From Chryseobacterium taklimakanense (lineage in GTDB: Bacteria; Bacteroidota; Bacteroidia; Flavobacteriales; Weeksellaceae): 64,000 bases of DNA. The stretch is taken from assembly GCF_900187185.1 (NCBI RefSeq), contig NZ_LT906465.1, forward strand, positions 2,294,001 through 2,358,000. Reading direction: 5' to 3'. The notes under the pieces are model-generated. The model had not been told where the DNA came from. It made no database searches and worked only from the letters and a program-made list of their open reading frames with translations. Shown piece by piece: positions 2-8,960 of the stretch. The stretch's first letter is position 1, and every line of letters starts with the position of its first letter. The translations under genes and the position numbers were made by a program.

Positions 2-979
2 ATATCAAAATTTGGTGTTTCATTTAAAGATCGTTATAAAACAAATTTGTTGATCTCATTTGTGAGTAAACCAGACTTATATAGGATTCCAGTACCTACT
101 TTTTCACAAGAATTAGAGAATATTATTGACGGTTTATTCAAAATAATTACTGAAGCACAAAAAATATCGAAATCAGTTTATAAAAATGCCGAGAATATTT
201 TGCTAGAAAAATTAGGACTGTATAATTTGACTTTTTCTAACGAAAATTTTAACAAAAAGTCCTTAAGTGATTCTTTTCTGAAATCTGGTCGTTTGGACGC
301 TGAATATTACCAACCACAGTATGAAGAACTTTTATCCCATATTAATTCTGTAAGTAATGATAAACTAGGGTATTTGGTTACAGTTAAGAAATCTATTGAG
401 CCAGGCTCAGGGGCATATCAGGAAGAGGGTGTTCCGTTTATTAGAGTTTCAAATTTAAGTAAATATGGCCTTACAGATCCCGAAATCCATTTAGATAGAA
501 CAGAGTTCTCAAACATTATCAAACCTACAAAAGATTCAATTCTGCTGTCTAAAGATGGTACGGTGGGAATTGCTTATAAAGTAGAAAAAGATATAGATGC
601 AATTACTTCCGGCGCAATCCTACATTTAAAAGTCAAAAACAAAGAAAAAATATTGCCGGATTACCTGACATTGGTTCTGAATTCTATCGTAGTAAAAATG
701 CAGGCAGAACGCGATGCGGGAGGTTCAATCATTCAACATTGGAAACCTTCAGAAATTGCACAGGTGGTAATTCCGATTTTAGATTTTGAAATACAACAGG
801 AAATTTCAGATTTAGTTCAGGAAAGTTTCAAATTAAAAAACGAAAGCGAACAGCTATTGCAGGTTGCAAAGCAAGCTGTAGAAATTGCCATTGAGCAAAA
901 CGAGGATAAAGCGATGGAGTTCATAAATCAAAATAGTAAAGATGCCGGTAAGTCAGGAAAACATAAACCGCTGGATTGA
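2..979 (+). CDS. hsdS: Type I restriction-modification specificity subunit HsdS (5' partial)
   Basis: DNA-recognition subunit of a type I restriction-modification enzyme; it would direct HsdM methylation and HsdR cleavage. The frame is open to the first base of the window, so the N-terminus, including most of the first target recognition domain, lies outside; the TTG at 47 is internal. Visible parts are the end of the first domain (motif YRIPVP), a central helical spacer, a second recognition domain beginning near GRLDAEYYQPQYEEL with the family segment VPFIRVSNLS, and a C-terminal helix (FEIQQEISDLVQESFKLK). The next gene starts 38 bp inside it, so the genes downstream are probably co-transcribed and translationally coupled. 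HsdM and HsdR are not in the window. Confidence 0.9.
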   Translation: MSKFGVSFKDRYKTNLLISFVSKPDLYRIPVPTFSQELENIIDGLFKIITEAQKISKSVYKNAENILLEKLGLYNLTFSNENFNKKSLSDSFLKSGRLDAEYYQPQYEELLSHINSVSNDKLGYLVTVKKSIEPGSGAYQEEGVPFIRVSNLSKYGLTDPEIHLDRTEFSNIIKPTKDSILLSKDGTVGIAYKVEKDIDAITSGAILHLKVKNKEKILPDYLTLVLNSIVVKMQAERDAGGSIIQHWKPSEIAQVVIPILDFEIQQEISDLVQESFKLKNESEQLLQVAKQAVEIAIEQNEDKAMEFINQNSKDAGKSGKHKPLD

Positions 980-1772
980 TCAGGCGAATATAGATTATAT
1001 TGGGCATTACATTAAAGCGTGGATTCCCTTTAATGCTTGGTATAATAATACTTATCCTCAATTCAATTCTGATAGAGAGAAAATCAATACAATAAAGAAC
1101 GATGCAAATACGGTAAGAAATGCAATCAATATGTTATTGGAAACAGATTCTCAACTATCCTTGGAGTTCAAAAGTCATTTGGCAACTTTAATTTTTCAGT
1201 TACAAGCACAACAGATCAATGGGCGAGATGGTAGAATATCATTTGATAATATTGTAAAAGAAAGAAATACTATAAATCAAAAAAGTATTGATTTTAACAG
1301 AAATCGATATTTTCTTCGTAGAACAGACGGTAGATTTGTTGGTGAGGTAACCTCTGTGCAGATTAATGTCAACAAACTTTCAGATAGTTCAAGTGTTTTC
1401 AGTTATCAACATACAGAATATGATTTAGTTCATTTGCAAAATAACGCGCATTATCAAGGCCTTTCTAATCAGGTGAAAGAACAGGTTCGTCTGTGCTTTC
1501 AGGAACTTGAACCATCAAATATAATTTCGGTAATGCAGGATGAACCAAGAGAAGCACCAATAAATTATTATGTGTGTGATGCCTACAAATTAAAGCGCGA
1601 TATACAAAACCCCAATTGTTACGGACATTTGGTAATAAGGGCTCTTATTGAAATTTTATATCAGATGCGGAACGTTCTTTTTCATGGTGAGTTAGTTCCT
1701 AATCTTGAAGCCCAAAAAGCATACAATAGTGCCTTTCATTTATTAAGAATAATTCTTGAAAAAATAAGATAG
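942..1772 (+). CDS. HEPN-domain protein in the hsdS operon
   Basis: A 276-residue protein of no recognised name. Near the C-terminus it has RNVLFH (R243 to H248), the R-X4-H motif of HEPN RNases, within a helical segment (LIEILYQMRNVLFHGEL). HEPN proteins are commonly RNA-cutting effectors of defence and toxin systems. The N-terminal 90 residues begin with NINRWIDQANIDYIGHYI and are predicted helical; the middle is unassigned. The ATG at 942 lies 38 bp inside hsdS, and the gene stops 1 bp before the next, so it belongs to the same operon. RNase activity is inferred only from the motif and context. Confidence 0.75.
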   Translation: MPVSQENINRWIDQANIDYIGHYIKAWIPFNAWYNNTYPQFNSDREKINTIKNDANTVRNAINMLLETDSQLSLEFKSHLATLIFQLQAQQINGRDGRISFDNIVKERNTINQKSIDFNRNRYFLRRTDGRFVGEVTSVQINVNKLSDSSSVFSYQHTEYDLVHLQNNAHYQGLSNQVKEQVRLCFQELEPSNIISVMQDEPREAPINYYVCDAYKLKRDIQNPNCYGHLVIRALIEILYQMRNVLFHGELVPNLEAQKAYNSAFHLLRIILEKIR

Positions 1773-1773
1773 T

Positions 1774-2223
1774 ATGCAGCAAAATTCTACAGATGAAGAA
1801 ATAATTTCAAAACTTGAAAAAAAGCCTAACAGTATTTTAAAAGTAGGATCGATTTCTTTTGGAATATCAATATTTATAATACTCTTTTTACCTTGGATAG
1901 TAACACAGTGTAGCAGCTGTTTGTCATTTAAAATTGACAAGCCTAACGAAATAGGAGATACCATTGGTGGTATTATGGGACCGAGTGTTGCAATCATTGC
2001 AGCAATGCTAACTTTTATAGCATTTTGGGCACAATATGATGCGAACATTGAGCAACGGAAACAGTTTCTTTTAAATCAGAAATCACAACAAGATGATGCA
2101 AAAATACAGGAATCACGTTTTTTGGATGCCCAAAATCGTATCAGCAAAGAGCAATTCGAGAATAAATATTATAATCTTTTAGAAATTCATCGTGAAAACA
2201 CAAGAGATTTCAATTGGAGATAA
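1774..2223 (+). CDS. putAbiC-like phage abortive infection protein, N-terminal fragment
   Basis: First part of a protein resembling the putative phage abortive infection family (PF16872 type). It has two membrane segments (about residues 22-42 and 68-90), then a charged helix with the family phrase FWAQYDANIEQRKQF and the hallmark FENKYYNLLEIHREN. Family members then continue without a break into the C-terminal domain, but here the frame ends ten residues later. The rest is found one frame over, starting at about 2192. The gene therefore looks broken by a +1 frameshift inside a 32-bp overlap. It begins 1 bp after the HEPN gene. A natural frameshift or a sequencing error cannot be excluded. 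Confidence 0.75.
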   Translation: MQQNSTDEEIISKLEKKPNSILKVGSISFGISIFIILFLPWIVTQCSSCLSFKIDKPNEIGDTIGGIMGPSVAIIAAMLTFIAFWAQYDANIEQRKQFLLNQKSQQDDAKIQESRFLDAQNRISKEQFENKYYNLLEIHRENTRDFNWR

Positions 2224-2935
2224 ATACGCGGGTGTTAAAGTCTTTTATCCTCTTGTTCAGGAGTTGAAATGTGCTTACGAAATATTATATAACAAATATC
2301 TCCTTTTTGATTCTTTCGATTCTAACCCCTCTAATTATACTGAGGAAGAACTCTACCAATTAGCCTACTTAATTTTTTTCTTTGGGATCAATAATAGTAA
2401 TAACCCTTTGTTTAAAGAATTAATGAGTGATAGGTTGTTTTCTATTTATGAGGAGGTAAAAGAAATGTTTTTATTAATTGAAGAAACGGATTACGAATAT
2501 CTTTCAAATGAAAGACGTACTTTTTGGATAAGGTTTAGGTATCGTGCTTTCATTGGTCATTCTTCAGAATTAAGCCATTATGTTCGCCACCTTTTTCAAA
2601 TAGTGAAGTTTGTAGATGATCAGCCAACTGAATTACTTTCAGACGATGAAAAATACAATTATATTACCAACTTAAGAGCGCAGTTAACAAGTCACGAACA
2701 ACTTTTTATATATTATAATGCCCTTAGTGTGTTGGGATATACGTGGTTGGGCAAAAGCAGTTCTAATTCCGTTAATTATTTAGAAAAATATTGTATTGTT
2801 AAATCTTTACCGTTGCCACTGTGCGATTTCTACAAGCACCCACTTGAAAATCAGGTTCTGCCTGAATATAATTCACAAGGAAAACCAATGTTTGAATGGA
2901 TAGAAATTAAAGAACGATTAAGCAACTTAAATTAA
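2192..2935 (+). CDS. putAbiC-like phage abortive infection protein, C-terminal fragment
   Basis: Second part of the same abortive-infection-like protein, in frame 2 instead of frame 1. Family features are clear: EISIGDKYAGVKVFYPLVQEL just after the junction, GHSSELSHYVRHLFQIVKF in the middle, and the segment NLRAQLTSHEQLFIYYNALS near residue 170, followed by LEKYCIVKSLPLP. The GTG at 2192 is only the first possible start in this frame and has no ribosome-binding signal, so independent translation is doubtful unless it is coupled to the upstream fragment. It ends 5 bp before the next gene. Confidence 0.75.
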   Translation: MKTQEISIGDKYAGVKVFYPLVQELKCAYEILYNKYLLFDSFDSNPSNYTEEELYQLAYLIFFFGINNSNNPLFKELMSDRLFSIYEEVKEMFLLIEETDYEYLSNERRTFWIRFRYRAFIGHSSELSHYVRHLFQIVKFVDDQPTELLSDDEKYNYITNLRAQLTSHEQLFIYYNALSVLGYTWLGKSSSNSVNYLEKYCIVKSLPLPLCDFYKHPLENQVLPEYNSQGKPMFEWIEIKERLSNLN

Positions 2936-2940
2936 TCCAA

Positions 2941-3300
2941 ATGAATAGCGTCTACGACAGTATGTCAAAAGCAGAATTGGAAGTCTGCAATTTCTTAAAA
3001 GAACTTAAAATATTTTGGACATTCGAGCAACCTGTATTTCTTACAGATGATGGCAATCGCCCACGCATATTTTGTCCGGATTTTTACCTGCCTGAATTGG
3101 GAATTTACATTGAGGTAATCGGTAATCCCGGTCTAAATGACTATGGAAGACGTGAAGAAATCTATTGCAAGAATAATATTCCAATCATTTTTATAAAGCC
3201 TTTTAATCATATAGGGTGGCGAGAATATTTAGTCGATGAAATTGTTGCGATTCACCAGGATAGATATCAGAAAATTAAAAGGATACAATCGCATTGGTAA
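2941..3300 (+). CDS. Small PD-(D/E)XK-like protein
   Basis: A 119-residue protein with the core outline of a restriction-endonuclease-like (DUF559/Vsr-type) fold: an N-terminal helix with acidic residues (SKAELEVCNFLKEL), then PDFYLPELGIYIEV, giving D47 and E58 of a PD-(D/E)XK site. The usual lysine two residues after the second acid is Ile60, so the nuclease may be inactive or use another lysine. The strand IPIIFIKPF follows, as expected for the fold. It starts 5 bp after the abortive-infection fragment and ends 4 bp before the next gene, inside the hsdS-led operon. Function is unknown; a nicking or damage-sensing role would be a guess. Confidence 0.6.
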   Translation: MNSVYDSMSKAELEVCNFLKELKIFWTFEQPVFLTDDGNRPRIFCPDFYLPELGIYIEVIGNPGLNDYGRREEIYCKNNIPIIFIKPFNHIGWREYLVDEIVAIHQDRYQKIKRIQSHW

Positions 3301-3304
3301 CTAC

Positions 3305-4834
3305 ATGAAAAAGTTTGAAGACCTTTTGCTAATTACTGATATTTCTAATCTTACAGGTAAAGAACAGGTAGATATTGTTGGAGAATTGTTTGATCTTTCT
3401 TTTGATAATAATAGTATCTCAGGTATTAGTAAAGCTTTTGATTTAATTGGTCAGATTCAAATAGAAGAATTATCAGCCCCTTTGCAAACGTTGCTTTATT
3501 ACGATATTGCAAACGGCTACGGCTATTTGCGTAAATTAAAATATTTCAACACACCCGATTCCTGGAATTTTGAAATGGAAGAAATTTCACATGAGGTATT
3601 CCATCTTCGAAAAGCAATTGCATCTCTAGGATTTGAAGAAATAGATGACTTAAGGAAATGTCAGATTTATACTAATCTTGGTAATACTTTTTCTTTTATA
3701 GGCAGGTTTATTGAAGCGCAGGAATATTGGCGCAAGGCATTAAATATTTTCCCTAATTTTCCAATGGCATTAGCAAATAGTGGACATGGCTTAATGTTTT
3801 ATTCAAATCAAATTTTTGACAATTCACATAAGTTATATTTTATTAACTACGGCTACCATAAAATCAAAGAAGCATTACACTTTAAGGAATATCTTGAAGG
3901 TGATGCTGCAAATCAATTTCTCAAGATGAAATCGTATATGGATGCTACTTATGATGTAAAAATCCTTTCAGAACAGTTTAATTTAAACAGTTTTGAATTT
4001 GGTGATAATGAAAAACTGAACAATTACCGATATTGGTGTTTAGAAAATTACCTTTACATTAATCCTTTAAACGATTTGGGAGCGTCTAAATTTGCTTCTC
4101 ACGATTGCTTGAATTTGCCATCTTTAATCTTAGAAACCAAAGCGCCACCAACATATTTCACACTTTACAATCAACTTAAGCAGGAATTTGCAACTGCAAG
4201 ATATTTCTATTACAAATCAGTCGTTTTTCAAGATCCTCATTTTTCAGACGAAGATGTAGTAATTGTAGATACTATGGAAAGTGCTTTGTTTTCTTACAAT
4301 CTTGAACTCGCTAAAAGTGCTTTTCGCAACACCTATTCAATTTTAGATAAAATTGCATATTTCCTAAATGATTATTTGAAACTGGGAAACAACTACAATC
4401 GCGTAAACTTTAGAAGTGTTTGGTTCAAGAAAGATAACAAAACATTACATGAGCATTTTCAAAACTCTCAAAATTGGGCTTTAAGAGGGTTATTCTGGTT
4501 AAGTAAAGATTTTTTCATTAAAGAACATGATGAGGTGTTAGATCCAGATTCAAAACAGATTGCCGAATTACGAAACTCTATTGAGCACAAAGGCCTGAAA
4601 ATAATGTATGATACTTATTTGTATAGTAATTTCTTTAATGCTGACAAAGAAATTATTTTTATAATAAACCGTGATGATTTTGAAAGTAAAACTTTGCGGT
4701 TGTTAAAAACAGTTCGAGCTGCGATAATGTATCTTGCTTTTATTATTAATTATGAAGAAGGTCAAAAAGAAAGTAATGGTCTGCCGACACTTCCAATGAA
4801 TTTAAGCGAAGTTCCGATTTATATGAAATTCTAA
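3305..4834 (+). CDS. LA2681-type HEPN-domain protein
   Basis: A 509-residue protein whose C-terminal part matches the LA2681-like HEPN family: NWALRGLFWLSKDFF, then LDPDSKQIAELRNSIEHKG with the catalytic-type R-X4-H motif at R423 and H428. The N-terminal half is helical, with a tetratricopeptide-like stretch around residues 95-165 (YTNLGNTFSFIGRFIEAQEYW), probably a sensor or interaction scaffold. The ATG at 3305 is chosen because it follows the previous stop by 4 bp; the frame is open further upstream only inside that gene. It is the last gene of the hsdS-led run; a separate promoter follows at 4878. RNA cleavage on infection is an inference from the family. Confidence 0.8.
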   Translation: MKKFEDLLLITDISNLTGKEQVDIVGELFDLSFDNNSISGISKAFDLIGQIQIEELSAPLQTLLYYDIANGYGYLRKLKYFNTPDSWNFEMEEISHEVFHLRKAIASLGFEEIDDLRKCQIYTNLGNTFSFIGRFIEAQEYWRKALNIFPNFPMALANSGHGLMFYSNQIFDNSHKLYFINYGYHKIKEALHFKEYLEGDAANQFLKMKSYMDATYDVKILSEQFNLNSFEFGDNEKLNNYRYWCLENYLYINPLNDLGASKFASHDCLNLPSLILETKAPPTYFTLYNQLKQEFATARYFYYKSVVFQDPHFSDEDVVIVDTMESALFSYNLELAKSAFRNTYSILDKIAYFLNDYLKLGNNYNRVNFRSVWFKKDNKTLHEHFQNSQNWALRGLFWLSKDFFIKEHDEVLDPDSKQIAELRNSIEHKGLKIMYDTYLYSNFFNADKEIIFIINRDDFESKTLRLLKTVRAAIMYLAFIINYEEGQKESNGLPTLPMNLSEVPIYMKF

Positions 4835-4924: not shown

Positions 4925-5263
4925 TTGGCCACCAAAGATGAAGTATCACAGTTTCTTAAAGAACTGAAGTCTGTAAGCGCTGCAGGCGAAATTTTCTTTA
5001 TCGACAGGCAGGTAAACACCCAAACACTCGCAGAGTTAGAGATTAAAGCACTTGAAAGAAAAGCTTATATCGAAAAGCTTGTTCTGGAAGACTATTCCGA
5101 AGGTCCGTTAGATAACGATCAGTATGGCATAGAACCCATGTGGGTTTTCGGAAAGAAAGTCAAAGAAAAGGAAGTATACATTAAAATTACAATTACCGCG
5201 CTTAATGTAATATGTATTTCTTTCCATACCTCACAGTATCCTATGAACTATCCATTTAAGTGA
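4925..5263 (+). CDS. MqsR-family toxin
   Basis: A 112-residue protein of the MqsR-like toxin group that pairs with Panacea-domain antitoxins. Recognisable segments are NTQTLAELEI, the central VLEDYSEGPL, MWVFGKKVKEKEVYIKITI and the C-terminal ICISFHTSQYPMNYPF. MqsR-type toxins are RelE-fold mRNA interferases. The frame has no ATG at its start; TTG at 4925 is used, about 13 bp after the predicted transcription start, while the ATG at 4938 is out of frame. The antitoxin gene begins 7 bp downstream. The family assignment is good; cleavage specificity cannot be read from sequence. Confidence 0.8.
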   Translation: MATKDEVSQFLKELKSVSAAGEIFFIDRQVNTQTLAELEIKALERKAYIEKLVLEDYSEGPLDNDQYGIEPMWVFGKKVKEKEVYIKITITALNVICISFHTSQYPMNYPFK

Positions 5264-5270
5264 GAACATT

Positions 5271-6269
5271 ATGAAAAGTCCTTTCACGGGAAAAGAAATG
5301 AAACTACAAAAAGAATCAAGAAAAGTAAGTTTCAGAAAACAGGAAATCGAATACACAAACCTTAGTTATTATTGTGAAGACACGAAACAAAGTGTGGTAA
5401 CCACAGAATTAGATGAAGTTAACCTTCGTCAGATTTATAACAAATACCGGGAATTGAATAACATTCCGTTCCCGGAAGAAATTAAAAAACTTCGTCAGAA
5501 ATATGGCTTGTCTGCTGCAAAAATGAGCGAACTGTTTGGTTTTGGTCCTAATCAGTATGCTCTCTATGAAAATGGAGAAATTCCCAGTATTTCGAATGCA
5601 AAGGCAATACGTTTAGCGGACAGTCCTTTTGTTTTCAAAAACATGTTGGAAAGCAATAAAGCAATAATTAAGGAGAAAGACTATAAATCAATAATTACAA
5701 AAATCAATGCAAAACTTGTAGGTTTTGAAGATGATTTTTCCTTTGAAGAGTTTTTATTGGGTGGTAAAGAACCAAGCCCCTTTACGGGTTACAAATCGCC
5801 GGATTATAACAGGTTAGCAACCATGGTTGCATACTTTGCTAAAAATTTGAAACCACAAAAAACATTATTAAATAAATTACTTTTTTATTCTGATTTTTTG
5901 CAATATAAAAATTTTGGTTCTTCAATATCAGGTTGCCGATACGCAGCCATAGCAAGAGGTCCGGTTCCGGATAACTTCAGAAGTCTTTTTGAAAAAATGG
6001 AAAAGGATAGTTTTGTAAAAATAAAATACATAGAATATCCGGATGGTAAAGTAGGCGAACAGTTCCTTTTAGGAGACGAGAAGCTTTCAGATTGGCAGTC
6101 GTTTTCGGAAGATGAACTAAAAACATTGCAAAATGTTTGTAGATTTTTTAAAGGGAAAACTACCAAAGAAGTGGTGGAGATTAGTCATAAAGAAACAGCG
6201 TGGCTTAAAAATCAGGAAGACAATGCCTTGATTGATTATACTTACGCTTTTGATTTAAGTTCATTTTAA
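5271..6269 (+). CDS. MqsA-like HTH plus Panacea (DUF4065) antitoxin
   Basis: A 332-residue antitoxin with three parts. An MqsA-like N-terminus (residues 1-60) keeps the layout of the zinc domain, but the first Cys-X2-Cys is replaced by SPFT, so zinc binding is probably lost. An XRE-type helix-turn-helix (about 68-120) contains IKKLRQKYGLSAAKMSELFG and NQYALYENGEI. A C-terminal Panacea/DUF4065 domain (about 170-330) begins YNRLATMVAYFAK, with KLLFYSDFLQYKNFG and GCRYAAIARGPVP. Panacea antitoxins neutralise many unrelated toxins. It lies 7 bp after the toxin gene. The HTH would allow autorepression of the promoter at 4878. Confidence 0.85.
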   Translation: MKSPFTGKEMKLQKESRKVSFRKQEIEYTNLSYYCEDTKQSVVTTELDEVNLRQIYNKYRELNNIPFPEEIKKLRQKYGLSAAKMSELFGFGPNQYALYENGEIPSISNAKAIRLADSPFVFKNMLESNKAIIKEKDYKSIITKINAKLVGFEDDFSFEEFLLGGKEPSPFTGYKSPDYNRLATMVAYFAKNLKPQKTLLNKLLFYSDFLQYKNFGSSISGCRYAAIARGPVPDNFRSLFEKMEKDSFVKIKYIEYPDGKVGEQFLLGDEKLSDWQSFSEDELKTLQNVCRFFKGKTTKEVVEISHKETAWLKNQEDNALIDYTYAFDLSSF

Positions 6270-6295
6270 TTTATCCGTGATTTTTACAGCTTAGA

Positions 6296-8428
6296 ATGGA
6301 AGAGCATGAAAAAATTTACGATGAATGGAAAAAAGATCTCCCGGTCAAGCTACAGGAAAATTTTGAAATAATTTGTGATATATCCGGTAAAATCAATTCT
6401 TTAGATCTAATTAGCTATTTGGCATTTTATAATGCGTTGCACAATGGCAATGAATATTCAGATTATAGGGAAGATAAACACTTTTTTGTTGCAGAAGCTG
6501 TTGCAATTCACTGCCTGAAAAAACCGATTATTGAACAAACTATCATTTCCGAAGATGAACTACCGTTTGCTTTCGAGAAAATTCAAGAAGCCGCTTTACG
6601 CTTCTGTTTTTTAAGTGATGCTATTTCCATGTCTGAAAAACCAATGGATAAAAGTTTATTGTCCGAAATTAATTTGACTTTACAAAGAGAGTCGGCTAAT
6701 ATAAGAAATCCCGGTCATCCTGAACATCATTTATCTTTTTCTAAAATACTTTACAAACCATTTAATGATAAAATAGAAAAAATATTCGGGTTTTCACACG
6801 ATACAACAATAATTATAAGAAAGAAAATTGTTGAATTTTTACGTAAAAAATATGCCACTGCATCTGATGAAACAATAGAAAAAGGTAAAGTACTTGCAAA
6901 GCAATTAATAAAATATAAAAAAGGAGTTGTTGGGGCAGAAAGTATTGGATCAAATATTGTTAACCTCGAAGAAGTAATAAATAAGCGTGAAATCGACATT
7001 CGAGATTTGTGCATTAAGCATAGTCTTACGCAACTCTACAAAAATTTTAGTAAATGCTATGTTTTCACAGTTGATGAACTTGCGGAATTCTGCGATATTG
7101 ATGTAACAGAAGTAAAAAATTTTCTAAATACTTATTCTTGTCAATTCCTGGAAATCCCTGAAAATGAAAAGATTTATCAACCTTTGAACTATCTGCATCA
7201 TAAACCTATTATCAAGCACAATGAAAGTTATTTAATTCCTTCAATCCCCCTTTTTAATTGGGCGGTGGAAGAGGTTTACAAAAAGGAATTCCGCAAACAC
7301 ACAAAATTATTTGATAGGTATACAAAGATTAAACACGATTTTCTATTAGATACTGGTGTAGATTACTTTTCCTCACTTTTACCAGAATCAAAAATCTATA
7401 AGAATGTCTTTTATTATGACGGTGAAAATAGATATGAGACTGACGCTATTATTGTTTTTGATAATTATGTATTTGTTATTGAAGCAAAAGCAAATGTTAT
7501 TTCTGAAAAAGCAAAATCCGGTCATAAAGATAAAACAAAGGATCACTTAAATGATTTAATAAAAAAATCATATGATCAGGCAGTTCGAACAATTGATTTT
7601 ATTGAAATTGGTGCAGATTTTTATGATAAAAATGGGAAATTAATTGTAATTGAAAAGCCGCGAAATGCTGTTTTTCAATTAGTCAGTTTAACTCTAGAAC
7701 CTTTAGGCAACATCATTCCTAAAATAAAAACTGATGACGAATTAAATTTTTTTTCTGAGAAATATTTTCCGTGGATCATAAGTTTGTATGATTTAATTTC
7801 TATAAATGATTTTTTCGAAACCCCTTCTCTATTATTTCATTATTTAGATTCTAGATCAAGATTTTTGGAGTACAATGATGCACACATATATGAAGAAATG
7901 GATTTAGTGGGATATTTTATTAGTAGAGGAGGTTTAGATTTGGATCGATTTATTGAAAAAGCGAAAAATGAAGGAGCCAATTATGTATACTTTGATAATG
8001 AAACTGACTTTATAAACAATTATTATATGCATCTTTTTGAAGGTAGACCTATTAAGAAACCTTCATATTTCAAAAATTTAAAATTTAAAGAATTAATATC
8101 AAAAATTGATAATTCATCTATTCCATGTAAATCATTGGTTTCATTAAAGCTGTTAAGTTTTAATCGTAATTCAATAAATGACTTGATGCAGAAAATTGAA
8201 AAAATTAAGAAAATGTATTACAAAGATGATGAATTGCATGATGCTTCGATTTTTACAATGTCAGATGGAGGATTTGGTTTTACATTCATGATTGGTAATG
8301 ATTACGAATTACTTGAAAAAAGACTAGATCAATATATTTCGTTTAAGAAAAATCAAATGTTTGCTAAAACATGGGTTGGAATCGCTGAGTATAAAAATGA
8401 AATTAGAATTATAAAGATATTAAGTTAA
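6296..8428 (+). CDS. Large protein with central PD-(D/E)XK nuclease motif, unknown family
   Basis: A 710-residue protein I cannot assign to a named family. A nuclease-type core sits near the middle: D383 in YETDAIIVFDNYVF followed by the strand VFVIEAKANV with E396 and K398, a canonical D...E-X-K arrangement, then a lysine-rich helix (KSGHKDKTKDHLNDL). The N-terminal 300 residues are helical and contain no recognised motif. The C-terminal third (about 500-710) has several aromatic-rich strands. No signal peptide or membrane segment is visible. It starts 26 bp after the antitoxin stop and is AT-rich like the defence genes before it. A DNA-degrading defence or R-M accessory role is likely but unproven. 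Confidence 0.6.
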   Translation: MEEHEKIYDEWKKDLPVKLQENFEIICDISGKINSLDLISYLAFYNALHNGNEYSDYREDKHFFVAEAVAIHCLKKPIIEQTIISEDELPFAFEKIQEAALRFCFLSDAISMSEKPMDKSLLSEINLTLQRESANIRNPGHPEHHLSFSKILYKPFNDKIEKIFGFSHDTTIIIRKKIVEFLRKKYATASDETIEKGKVLAKQLIKYKKGVVGAESIGSNIVNLEEVINKREIDIRDLCIKHSLTQLYKNFSKCYVFTVDELAEFCDIDVTEVKNFLNTYSCQFLEIPENEKIYQPLNYLHHKPIIKHNESYLIPSIPLFNWAVEEVYKKEFRKHTKLFDRYTKIKHDFLLDTGVDYFSSLLPESKIYKNVFYYDGENRYETDAIIVFDNYVFVIEAKANVISEKAKSGHKDKTKDHLNDLIKKSYDQAVRTIDFIEIGADFYDKNGKLIVIEKPRNAVFQLVSLTLEPLGNIIPKIKTDDELNFFSEKYFPWIISLYDLISINDFFETPSLLFHYLDSRSRFLEYNDAHIYEEMDLVGYFISRGGLDLDRFIEKAKNEGANYVYFDNETDFINNYYMHLFEGRPIKKPSYFKNLKFKELISKIDNSSIPCKSLVSLKLLSFNRNSINDLMQKIEKIKKMYYKDDELHDASIFTMSDGGFGFTFMIGNDYELLEKRLDQYISFKKNQMFAKTWVGIAEYKNEIRIIKILS

Positions 8429-8960
8429 TCCCCGCTCTTCCCCAGCAAGTTACATAATGAACATTATACGCACAGTCCAACGCAACGGGGAGTTCGTCCT
8501 TTACGGTATGCAGTCCAAAGCAAATTCCAAAACATTCTGCAAACCTTCATTCCCTCACAAGCTAATGCCAAGTGCCTATAATGTGGCATTATGTAAAATG
8601 CTTTCCTTTTGTTTGGGCGAAGCCCGCACAATCCACCGCCTTCCAGCCGCCGGTGTCATTATAATTTAGAAGATAAGTTTCCCAAATCAAAACCTTCAAA
8701 TCCCCGCCACCCATTCAAGGATGCAGAAAAATGGTACAGACTGTTTCGGGATTTTCCAAGTTCCTTCAGCCACTGCACGGACAAGTCGTCCAGTCGCTTT
8801 CTTCACCGCGCACAGTCGTATTCCATACTGAAAGAAAATACCTTTCCAAAAAACTTCCAGCACCCATCGCCCCACTTCCAGCAACAAAAAGCATTTTCTT
8901 TCAGCATTCCATACCACTGTCTTTACAGCCGCTTTTTTCATTCAGGCACATAAGGAATGT
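8429..8960 (+). other. Non-coding, hairpin-rich stretch between defence genes and IS element
   Basis: No convincing gene. The base composition is clearly more GC-rich than the genes to the left. Several short palindromes are present: ATAATG/CATTAT (8454-8467), AATGCCA/TGGCATT (8564-8590) and GGGC/GCCC (8615-8625). Open frames on both strands are short, overlap each other and have no protein-like composition. It may be the end of a gene cassette or a relic of a mobile element. Confidence 0.5.

Follow-up and report, generated by a model that had tools for sequence, protein, structure and literature searches.

Restriction–modification (R-M) systems with linked HEPN ribonucleases (RNases) are already known. 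At least 16 HEPN clades lie beside R-M systems in the tabulation of Anantharaman et al. (2013; PMC3710099), in which LA2681 is also entered, and a logic of restraint and release has been proposed for PrrC/EcoprrI and for R-M-linked HEPN proteins (PMC3710099, PMC3506569), together with repeated toxin replacement in R-M loci (PMC3506569). HEPN domains are also paired with DUF262, PD-T4-2 being listed under both (PMC10952713). Against this background, we analysed a stretch of 64,000 nucleotides (nt), hereafter the window (positions 2294001-2358000), of the single-contig 2.76 Mb genome of Chryseobacterium taklimakanense, at the start of which hsdS is followed by HEPN1, a gene of no catalogued family, and by further defence-like genes. 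The core of this locus is a three-gene R-M unit, hsdM*-hsdS-HEPN1, situated on an island with an integrase, and not a five-gene system. By analogy with the systems above, HEPN1 may be an RNase toxin that is restrained by the complex of HsdM* and HsdS (M*S) and freed upon restriction failure, a reading to which we give roughly even chances.

In the initial annotation hsdS headed the operon; it is in fact preceded, outside the window, by an integrase gene (L003:13770-15035) and by hsdM* (L003:15423-17492). Here and below, L-numbered loci are retrieved stretches with their own coordinates, L003 being the DNA upstream of the window. The open reading frames (ORFs) and their close packing are as first described: hsdS and HEPN1 overlap by 38 nt, HEPN1 is followed after 1 nt by a putAbiC-like gene in two pieces that overlap by 32 nt, and gaps of 5 and 4 nt then separate the putAbiC-like gene from a PD-(D/E)XK-like ORF and this ORF from a second HEPN gene (HEPN2). 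Both R-X4-H motifs noted at the outset are present, R243/H248 in HEPN1 and R423/H428 in HEPN2. The elements of the unit that fall within the window are:

2..979, plus strand: hsdS, last 325 of 485 codons (full gene L003:17522-18979; PADLOC Specificity_I, 2e-26)
942..1772, plus strand: HEPN1, third gene of the conserved unit, HEPN-type, 276 amino acids (aa), overlapping hsdS by 38 nt
1668..1685, plus strand: R243-x4-H248 of HEPN1, predicted RNase motif, whose R and H are unchanged in each of the 28 homologues aligned

The unit is defined by its recurrence. When 84,980 species genomes were scanned for HEPN1, 30 loci emerged, comprising 15 with hsdM*-hsdS, 13 with a DUF262/GmrSD_N gene, one truncated copy (L008, Epilithonimonas bovis) and one at a contig edge (L028), where no hsdM*S lies within the 4.3 kb before HEPN1. 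The order hsdM-hsdS-HEPN1 is kept in 14 of the 15 hsdM*S loci, the remaining one being that of Pseudanabaena (L015), in which HEPN1 stands ahead of a fused hsdM-hsdS frame, and the spacing between hsdS and HEPN1 ranges from -38 to +12 nt across the 17 loci measured. In the second context the DUF262/GmrSD_N gene directly follows HEPN1 at a spacing of -4 to +7 nt; three of these genes were called by Pfam, and similarity to one of the three identifies the full 13. The sequence DGQQR is invariant in all 13 partners, and the GmrSD_C nuclease gave no match in the three that were scanned. With near-copies included, 39 loci were tabulated, of which 36 carry a full or nearly full HEPN1; M*S or DUF262 adjoins it in 35, and the last is the contig-edge locus L028. 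In a rumen Paludibacteraceae metagenome-assembled genome, an AbiJ gene (L033:8974-9912) lies immediately upstream of the HEPN1-DUF262 pair.

The hsdM*S-HEPN1 form occurs in six phyla, namely Bacteroidota, Campylobacterota, Cyanobacteriota, Verrucomicrobiota, Chloroflexota and Pseudomonadota. The Verrucomicrobiota and Chloroflexota loci come from metagenome-assembled genomes, and the Campylobacterota case is a single metagenome contig from a bin that is doubtful because its HsdM* is 91% identical to a Bacteroidetes HsdM*. In Pseudomonadota the unit is found on a Klebsiella plasmid (NZ_LR890357.1) and in 3 of 5,426 Escherichia coli genomes, the same three to which full-length HEPN1 and hsdM* are confined; the gene is annotated as a hypothetical protein in these few chromosomes. 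A second cyanobacterium and IMG/VR contigs carry the unit as well. HEPN1 is rare throughout, being present in 2 of 395 Bacteroidota genomes and in 3 of 296 genomes of the order, this one included. The proposed tie between HEPN genes and restriction, and the proposed conservation of gene order beside hsdS, are supported for hsdM*-hsdS-HEPN1, which recurs across unrelated phyla; neither is supported for the putAbiC, PD-(D/E)XK-like and LA2681 genes, which follow it only in near-identical islands.

HsdM* combines an N-terminal HSDR_N_2 nuclease and an N6_Mtase domain in one protein. Residues D94, E111 and K113 and the NPPF motif are kept in 26 of 26 aligned HsdM* sequences (near-copies included), as is E81 in 15 of 15. 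The closest solved relative is RM.BsaXI (2.5e-21 by sequence, 1.9e-11 by Foldseek), and E81, D94, E111 and K113 follow the same order, at similar spacing, as E73, D90, E105 and K107, reported as essential in BsaXI (PMC11997821). A fold for the whole length of HsdM* was not retained, the model being good only for about residues 1-170. The initial annotation had seen the locus as an enlarged hsdM-hsdS-hsdR set; no hsdR is linked to hsdM*-hsdS in this island, and linkage at other loci was judged from ORF lists, not from hidden Markov models. One locus of the Pseudanabaena phylum (L073:4179-11441) has, on ORF reading, hsdM*-hsdS-HEPN1 seemingly inserted in a classic type I operon, with a classic HsdM-like N-terminus before HsdM* and an HsdR-like C-terminal ORF after HEPN1. 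Membership in MADS was set aside as doubtful on two of its models: on the partial hsdS of the window, MAD5 (NF047740) reached 120.6 bits against a cut-off of 400, and HsdM* itself scores 144 bits with PADLOC mad2, far under the 1148 bits of its best Type I model.

HEPN1 is a genuine gene under purifying selection, as shown by the invariance of R243 and H248 in all 28 aligned homologues and by a low ratio of nonsynonymous to synonymous substitution rates (0.06-0.20 in six pairs; one further pair was saturated). The residue after the arginine is N or C, and W11, D18, WIPFNAWY (27-34), Y240, F247 and G249 are among the other positions invariant in the 28; the R-x4-6-H motif is also kept in relatives at L050, L073, L098 and L100. 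An AlphaFold2 model of high confidence (pLDDT 93) places helices at 5-90 and 229-275 on either side of a beta region that starts at 105. In an IMG/VR contig (L100), a relative of 196 aa retains both ends and the motif, as RNMLIH, and lacks most of the beta insert. No Pfam HEPN family was matched by any of the 28 members at E 0.01. Since Pfam and structure searches returned no HEPN family or bundle, HEPN status rests on the motif and the helical ends; the motif, its site at the end of the penultimate helix and those helical ends make membership in the HEPN superfamily probable.

Several candidate relatives of HEPN1 were rejected. The best Foldseek match in the PDB (PTPN21) had an E-value of 0.066, a profile search gave six weak rows whose best (8e-4, to a haemagglutinin chain) was judged spurious, and similarity to the single MAE_28990 protein compared was undetectable. 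Kinship with LA2681 was also dropped: HEPN1 and HEPN2, compared as single sequences, gave an hhalign probability of 0.4%, no detectable relation, in line with the earlier statement that the two HEPN proteins are unrelated.

Parts of the unit have been lost and exchanged. In Epilithonimonas bovis (L008) hsdM*S has disappeared along with the 5' part of HEPN1, and on Klebsiella-type plasmids, one of which (L056) was examined closely, the HEPN1 match covers less than 80% of the gene in 465 of 466 records (51% among the 29 such rows listed), with hsdM* in only one Klebsiella record. Both sampled lineages without hsdM*S retain just a 3' piece of HEPN1. On L056 this remnant (L056:5992-6408) is followed by two DUF262 genes; the remnant recurs in 465 plasmid records, most of them conjugative. 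HEPN1 and HsdS are, in turn, exchanged under a nearly constant HsdM*: between this genome and L005 (Kaistella haifensis) HsdM* is 99%, HEPN1 98% and HsdS 39% identical, and between L014 and L017 HsdM* is 98% and HEPN1 37% identical. On a tree of HsdM*, the presence of HEPN1 requires 4 changes compared with a shuffled mean of 10.8, a clustering that is inflated because most HEPN1-positive rows were gathered by HEPN1 searches; the other Bacteroidota HsdM* relatives lie mostly on long branches. Many HsdM* relatives are found without HEPN1, so M*S does not need it. This asymmetry, in which HEPN1 without a partner is seen only truncated whereas HsdM*S often lacks HEPN1, is what a partner-dependent toxin would show, within the few lineages that carry HEPN1.

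Under the reading of HEPN1 as a restrained toxin, HsdM* and HsdS would assemble into an (RM)2S complex, helicase-free and Type IIB-like, which methylates N6-adenine in self DNA, cleaves unmethylated DNA and keeps the HEPN1 RNase inactive; an infection that disables or overwhelms the complex would release HEPN1, which would then halt translation. DNA cutting, RNase activity, physical restraint, the trigger and a role in phage defence are all inferred. The locus would then offer a small and testable case of a suicidal RNase held in check by a restriction system that has neither an ABC ATPase nor an HsdR motor. It also points to an uncatalogued HEPN family seen in six phyla (one through the doubtful bin), whose carriers include a plasmid of Klebsiella and a small number of E. 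coli chromosomes.

A number of observations weigh against this reading. On the structural side, the Foldseek match to BsaXI has a TM-score of 0.15, the HsdM* model has a pLDDT of 52.8 and is poor past the N-terminal ~170 residues, and Foldseek and VIA-align match only the beta insert of HEPN1 (the VIA-align rows lie mainly over residues 109-192) and no HEPN bundle. Two HSDR_N matches elsewhere in this genome might act in trans. That no orphan copies were seen draws on few lineages, and the two deletions that run through HEPN1 may have arisen by chance. The partnership is also loose from the side of HsdM*, as six of seven relatives found in the 395 Bacteroidota genomes lack HEPN1, and in the Pseudanabaena phylum (244 genomes) just two of eight relatives show it, one of these being the search centre genome, with two more of the eight stopping at contig edges. 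Finally, pairing with DUF262 points to a sensor that fires HEPN1 directly, in preference to release on failure.

Direct firing is the alternative that survives best, and we regard it as a possibility of the lesser sort, behind restraint. It supposes that HEPN1 is activated as the primary effector when M*S binds unmethylated sites or DUF262 binds modified DNA, as would suit a family that pairs with DUF262/GmrSD_N at 13 of 30 loci. Because GmrSD_C was unmatched in the three scanned partners, the effector of those pairs may be HEPN1. HsdM*, however, has a complete nuclease motif, so another effector should be unneeded, and no intact orphan HEPN1 was seen among the 39 tabulated loci, which favours restraint weakly.

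Among loci retrieved with HsdM*, the place behind hsdS is at times taken by a different HEPN gene. At L103 the slot holds AbiJ, which overlaps hsdS by 11 nt and is tabulated as a HEPN family in PMC3710099; at L069 it holds MntA (4 nt overlap) with HepT as the second gene; and at L098 a distant 376-aa relative of HEPN1 with RNALFH overlaps hsdS by 37 nt. At L099:10448-11680, a gene overlapping hsdS by 20 nt encodes a GNAT acetyltransferase domain and, among its first ~100 residues, RNTITH, possibly a HEPN-GNAT fusion. Other slots are occupied by half an HsdS (L044), a protein whose ATPase match is sub-threshold (L045), an SH3 protein (L047) or a 77-aa ORF (L071); RelE or PIN toxins lie somewhat farther downstream at L052 and L068, and L043, L046, L048, L055 and L072 have no same-strand gene within 130 nt. 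By hand count, a model-supported HEPN gene adjoins hsdM*S in 10 of the 22 loci with a visible flank: 1 of 7 in Bacteroidota, 3 of 6 in the Pseudanabaena phylum (two more end with their contigs), 4 of 5 in IMG/VR (one broken; hsdS is out of sight in two additional loci), 1 of 3 on plasmids (one Trichormus copy dropped) and the single phage-labelled record (1 of 1). Three of the ten are present by construction, namely this genome as the query, G395 as a search centre reached via HEPN1, and L102, also reached via HEPN1; without them the figure is 7 of 19, and 0 of 6 for the other Bacteroidota. The IMG/VR scan alignment was built from HEPN1-linked HsdM* rows and is biased towards those, L099 (motif only) stands outside the count, and the count is of hsdM*S loci alone, uncontrolled for hsdS genes at large.

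Tentatively, and with odds that we would place below even, these loci may be described as a helicase-free, Type IIB-like R-M system with an exchangeable RNase slot behind hsdS, and with HEPN1 moving onto DUF262 sensors. The occupants of that slot would, on the same tentative footing, be mostly HEPN1, and also its short or long relatives, AbiJ and MntA-HepT. If this is true, DNA-sensing complexes and RNA-cutting effectors are modular parts of one broad, RNase-armed restriction class.

It is unlikely that HEPN1 is instead a non-catalytic accessory subunit of the restriction complex, such as an RNA- or DNA-binding protein or an assembly factor. The beta insert weakly resembles nucleic-acid-binding PUR repeats, with Z up to 5.7, a value that unrelated folds can reach. 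The motif R and H, by comparison, are invariant across the 28 homologues and are retained in the 196-aa relative from which most of the insert is missing, and, in the account given in PMC3710099, it is loss of the motif, not its retention, that goes with non-catalytic HEPN proteins.

More improbable still is a single multi-gene defence system made up of hsdS, HEPN1, putAbiC, PD-(D/E)XK and HEPN2, as the initial annotation had proposed. The genes behind HEPN1 are:

1774..2935 (pieces 1774-2223 and 2192-2935), plus strand: putAbiC-like gene, accessory (PF16872, 60.2 bits, cut-off 22; AbiC, 2.4e-6)
2941..3300, plus strand: PD-(D/E)XK-like small ORF, accessory (PADLOC PDC-S69, 3.6e-6)
3305..4834, plus strand: HEPN2, LA2681-type, accessory (PF18733, 246.3 bits, cut-off 27; R423/H428)

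The tight spacing speaks for such a system, as does the fact that three near-identical islands carry these genes together after HEPN1. These are, however, the only places in which the set was found, namely the window, Kaistella haifensis (L005) and Epilithonimonas bovis (L008), and the block is 99.5-99.8% identical among them. Of the other hsdM*S loci from the genome scan, 11 show 1.4 kb of flank or more and lack the set. The contigs of L009, L013 and L019 stop within 0.5 kb of HEPN1 and are too short to tell, which leaves L005 as the only one of the 15 with the set. L008 keeps the accessory genes though its hsdM*S is lost. Relatives of the parts also occur apart: among 246 Bacteroidota genomes, one (G063) has an LA2681 relative (E 1e-20) and 11 have putAbiC relatives (E 1e-6), and the flanks examined, about 1.5 kb to either side, lack the companion genes. 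For the PD-(D/E)XK-like ORF, the order's 106 other genomes gave no relative at E 1e-5. The LA2681 and putAbiC genes are thus found apart in related genomes, contrary to the idea of five genes in one system.

The individual accessory assignments fared unevenly. The putAbiC-like gene does match its abortive-infection-type family well above the cut-off; it is broken in the window by a small frameshift, so that no single frame spans it, and is a single frame in L005 and L008 and a single ORF in all nine of the 12 relatives elsewhere that were inspected. The PD-(D/E)XK-like protein exists as an ORF with weak PADLOC matches only, and its sequence, PDFYLPELGIYIEVIG, lacks the lysine of E-x-K. PD-(D/E)XK nucleases usually have a lysine in that motif. 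HEPN2, numbered from the ATG at 3305, contains a TPR-like stretch with TPR matches below cut-off. Most likely the putAbiC, PD-(D/E)XK-like and LA2681 genes are independent defence genes that have gathered downstream of the R-M unit.

Defence genes cluster in genomes, and HsdM* often stands without HEPN1, so HEPN1 might be a passive neighbour of hsdM*S with no functional link; this is highly improbable for a gene so rare (2 of 395 Bacteroidota genomes) of which all 35 full-length copies with a visible neighbourhood, near-copies included, adjoin M*S or DUF262.

Downstream of HEPN2, the block shared by the window and L005 extends to position 8544, followed by short shared pieces, and includes as its last gene that of a 710-aa protein. 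The remaining features of this block are:

4925-5263, plus strand: MqsR-like toxin, Pfam match below cut-off (PF15723, PF15731 and PF13274 for the toxin-antitoxin pair)
5271-6269, plus strand: MqsA-Panacea antitoxin, partner of the MqsR-like gene
6296..8428, plus strand: 710-aa protein; its NERD nuclease-like match falls under the cut-off

In the toxin-antitoxin pair at 4925-6269, an MqsA-type antitoxin is fused to a Panacea (SocA-like) domain, with the MqsR-like toxin adjoining. G+C content is 30-33% across the first 8 kb of the window and 34-49% beyond. A promoter scan gave 40 sites against 40.3 in shuffles, terminator-like sites numbered 6 against 4.3, and an Rfam search gave no match. Farther upstream, 12 kb or more ahead of hsdS, lies a resistance cluster (L003:3-5236, NCBIfam models) that comprises a partial Lnu(H)-like gene, incomplete at the L003 edge, Tet(X), an OXA-1327-type beta-lactamase, EreD and CatB, and is followed by an IS91-type transposase (5611-7221).

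Several described systems stand close to the hsdM*-hsdS-HEPN1 unit. PrrC-EcoprrI, in which a HEPN anticodon nuclease is held by a Type Ic R-M system (PMC3710099, PMC3506569), resembles it in the linkage of a HEPN RNase gene to an R-M operon. HEPN1, however, has 276 aa, belongs to no Pfam family and is without a recognisable ABC ATPase domain, and this island is without a linked hsdR, its M subunit holding a nuclease domain of its own. The DUF262-HEPN pairs (PD-T4-2; MAE_28990-type HEPN) resemble the second HEPN1 context in joining HEPN with DUF262, and differ in that HEPN1 precedes DUF262, has no Pfam HEPN family and shows no detectable similarity to one MAE_28990 protein. Type IIB systems (BsaXI, BcgI) share the N-terminal E-D-ExK nuclease fused to an N6-methylase, the separate S, with the exception of the cyanobacterial L015, where M and S form one ORF, and the lack of a translocase gene; the difference lies in the HEPN gene behind hsdS. 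That pairing was not found in the literature searched, which included PMC12839542, and in the table passages and section 10 of Anantharaman et al. (2013; PMC3710099) no HEPN is described behind a core of methylase-nuclease plus S. Within the open PMC literature, what looks new is the HEPN1 family itself, the position that it takes after nuclease-methylase/S pairs across several phyla, and its DUF262 context.

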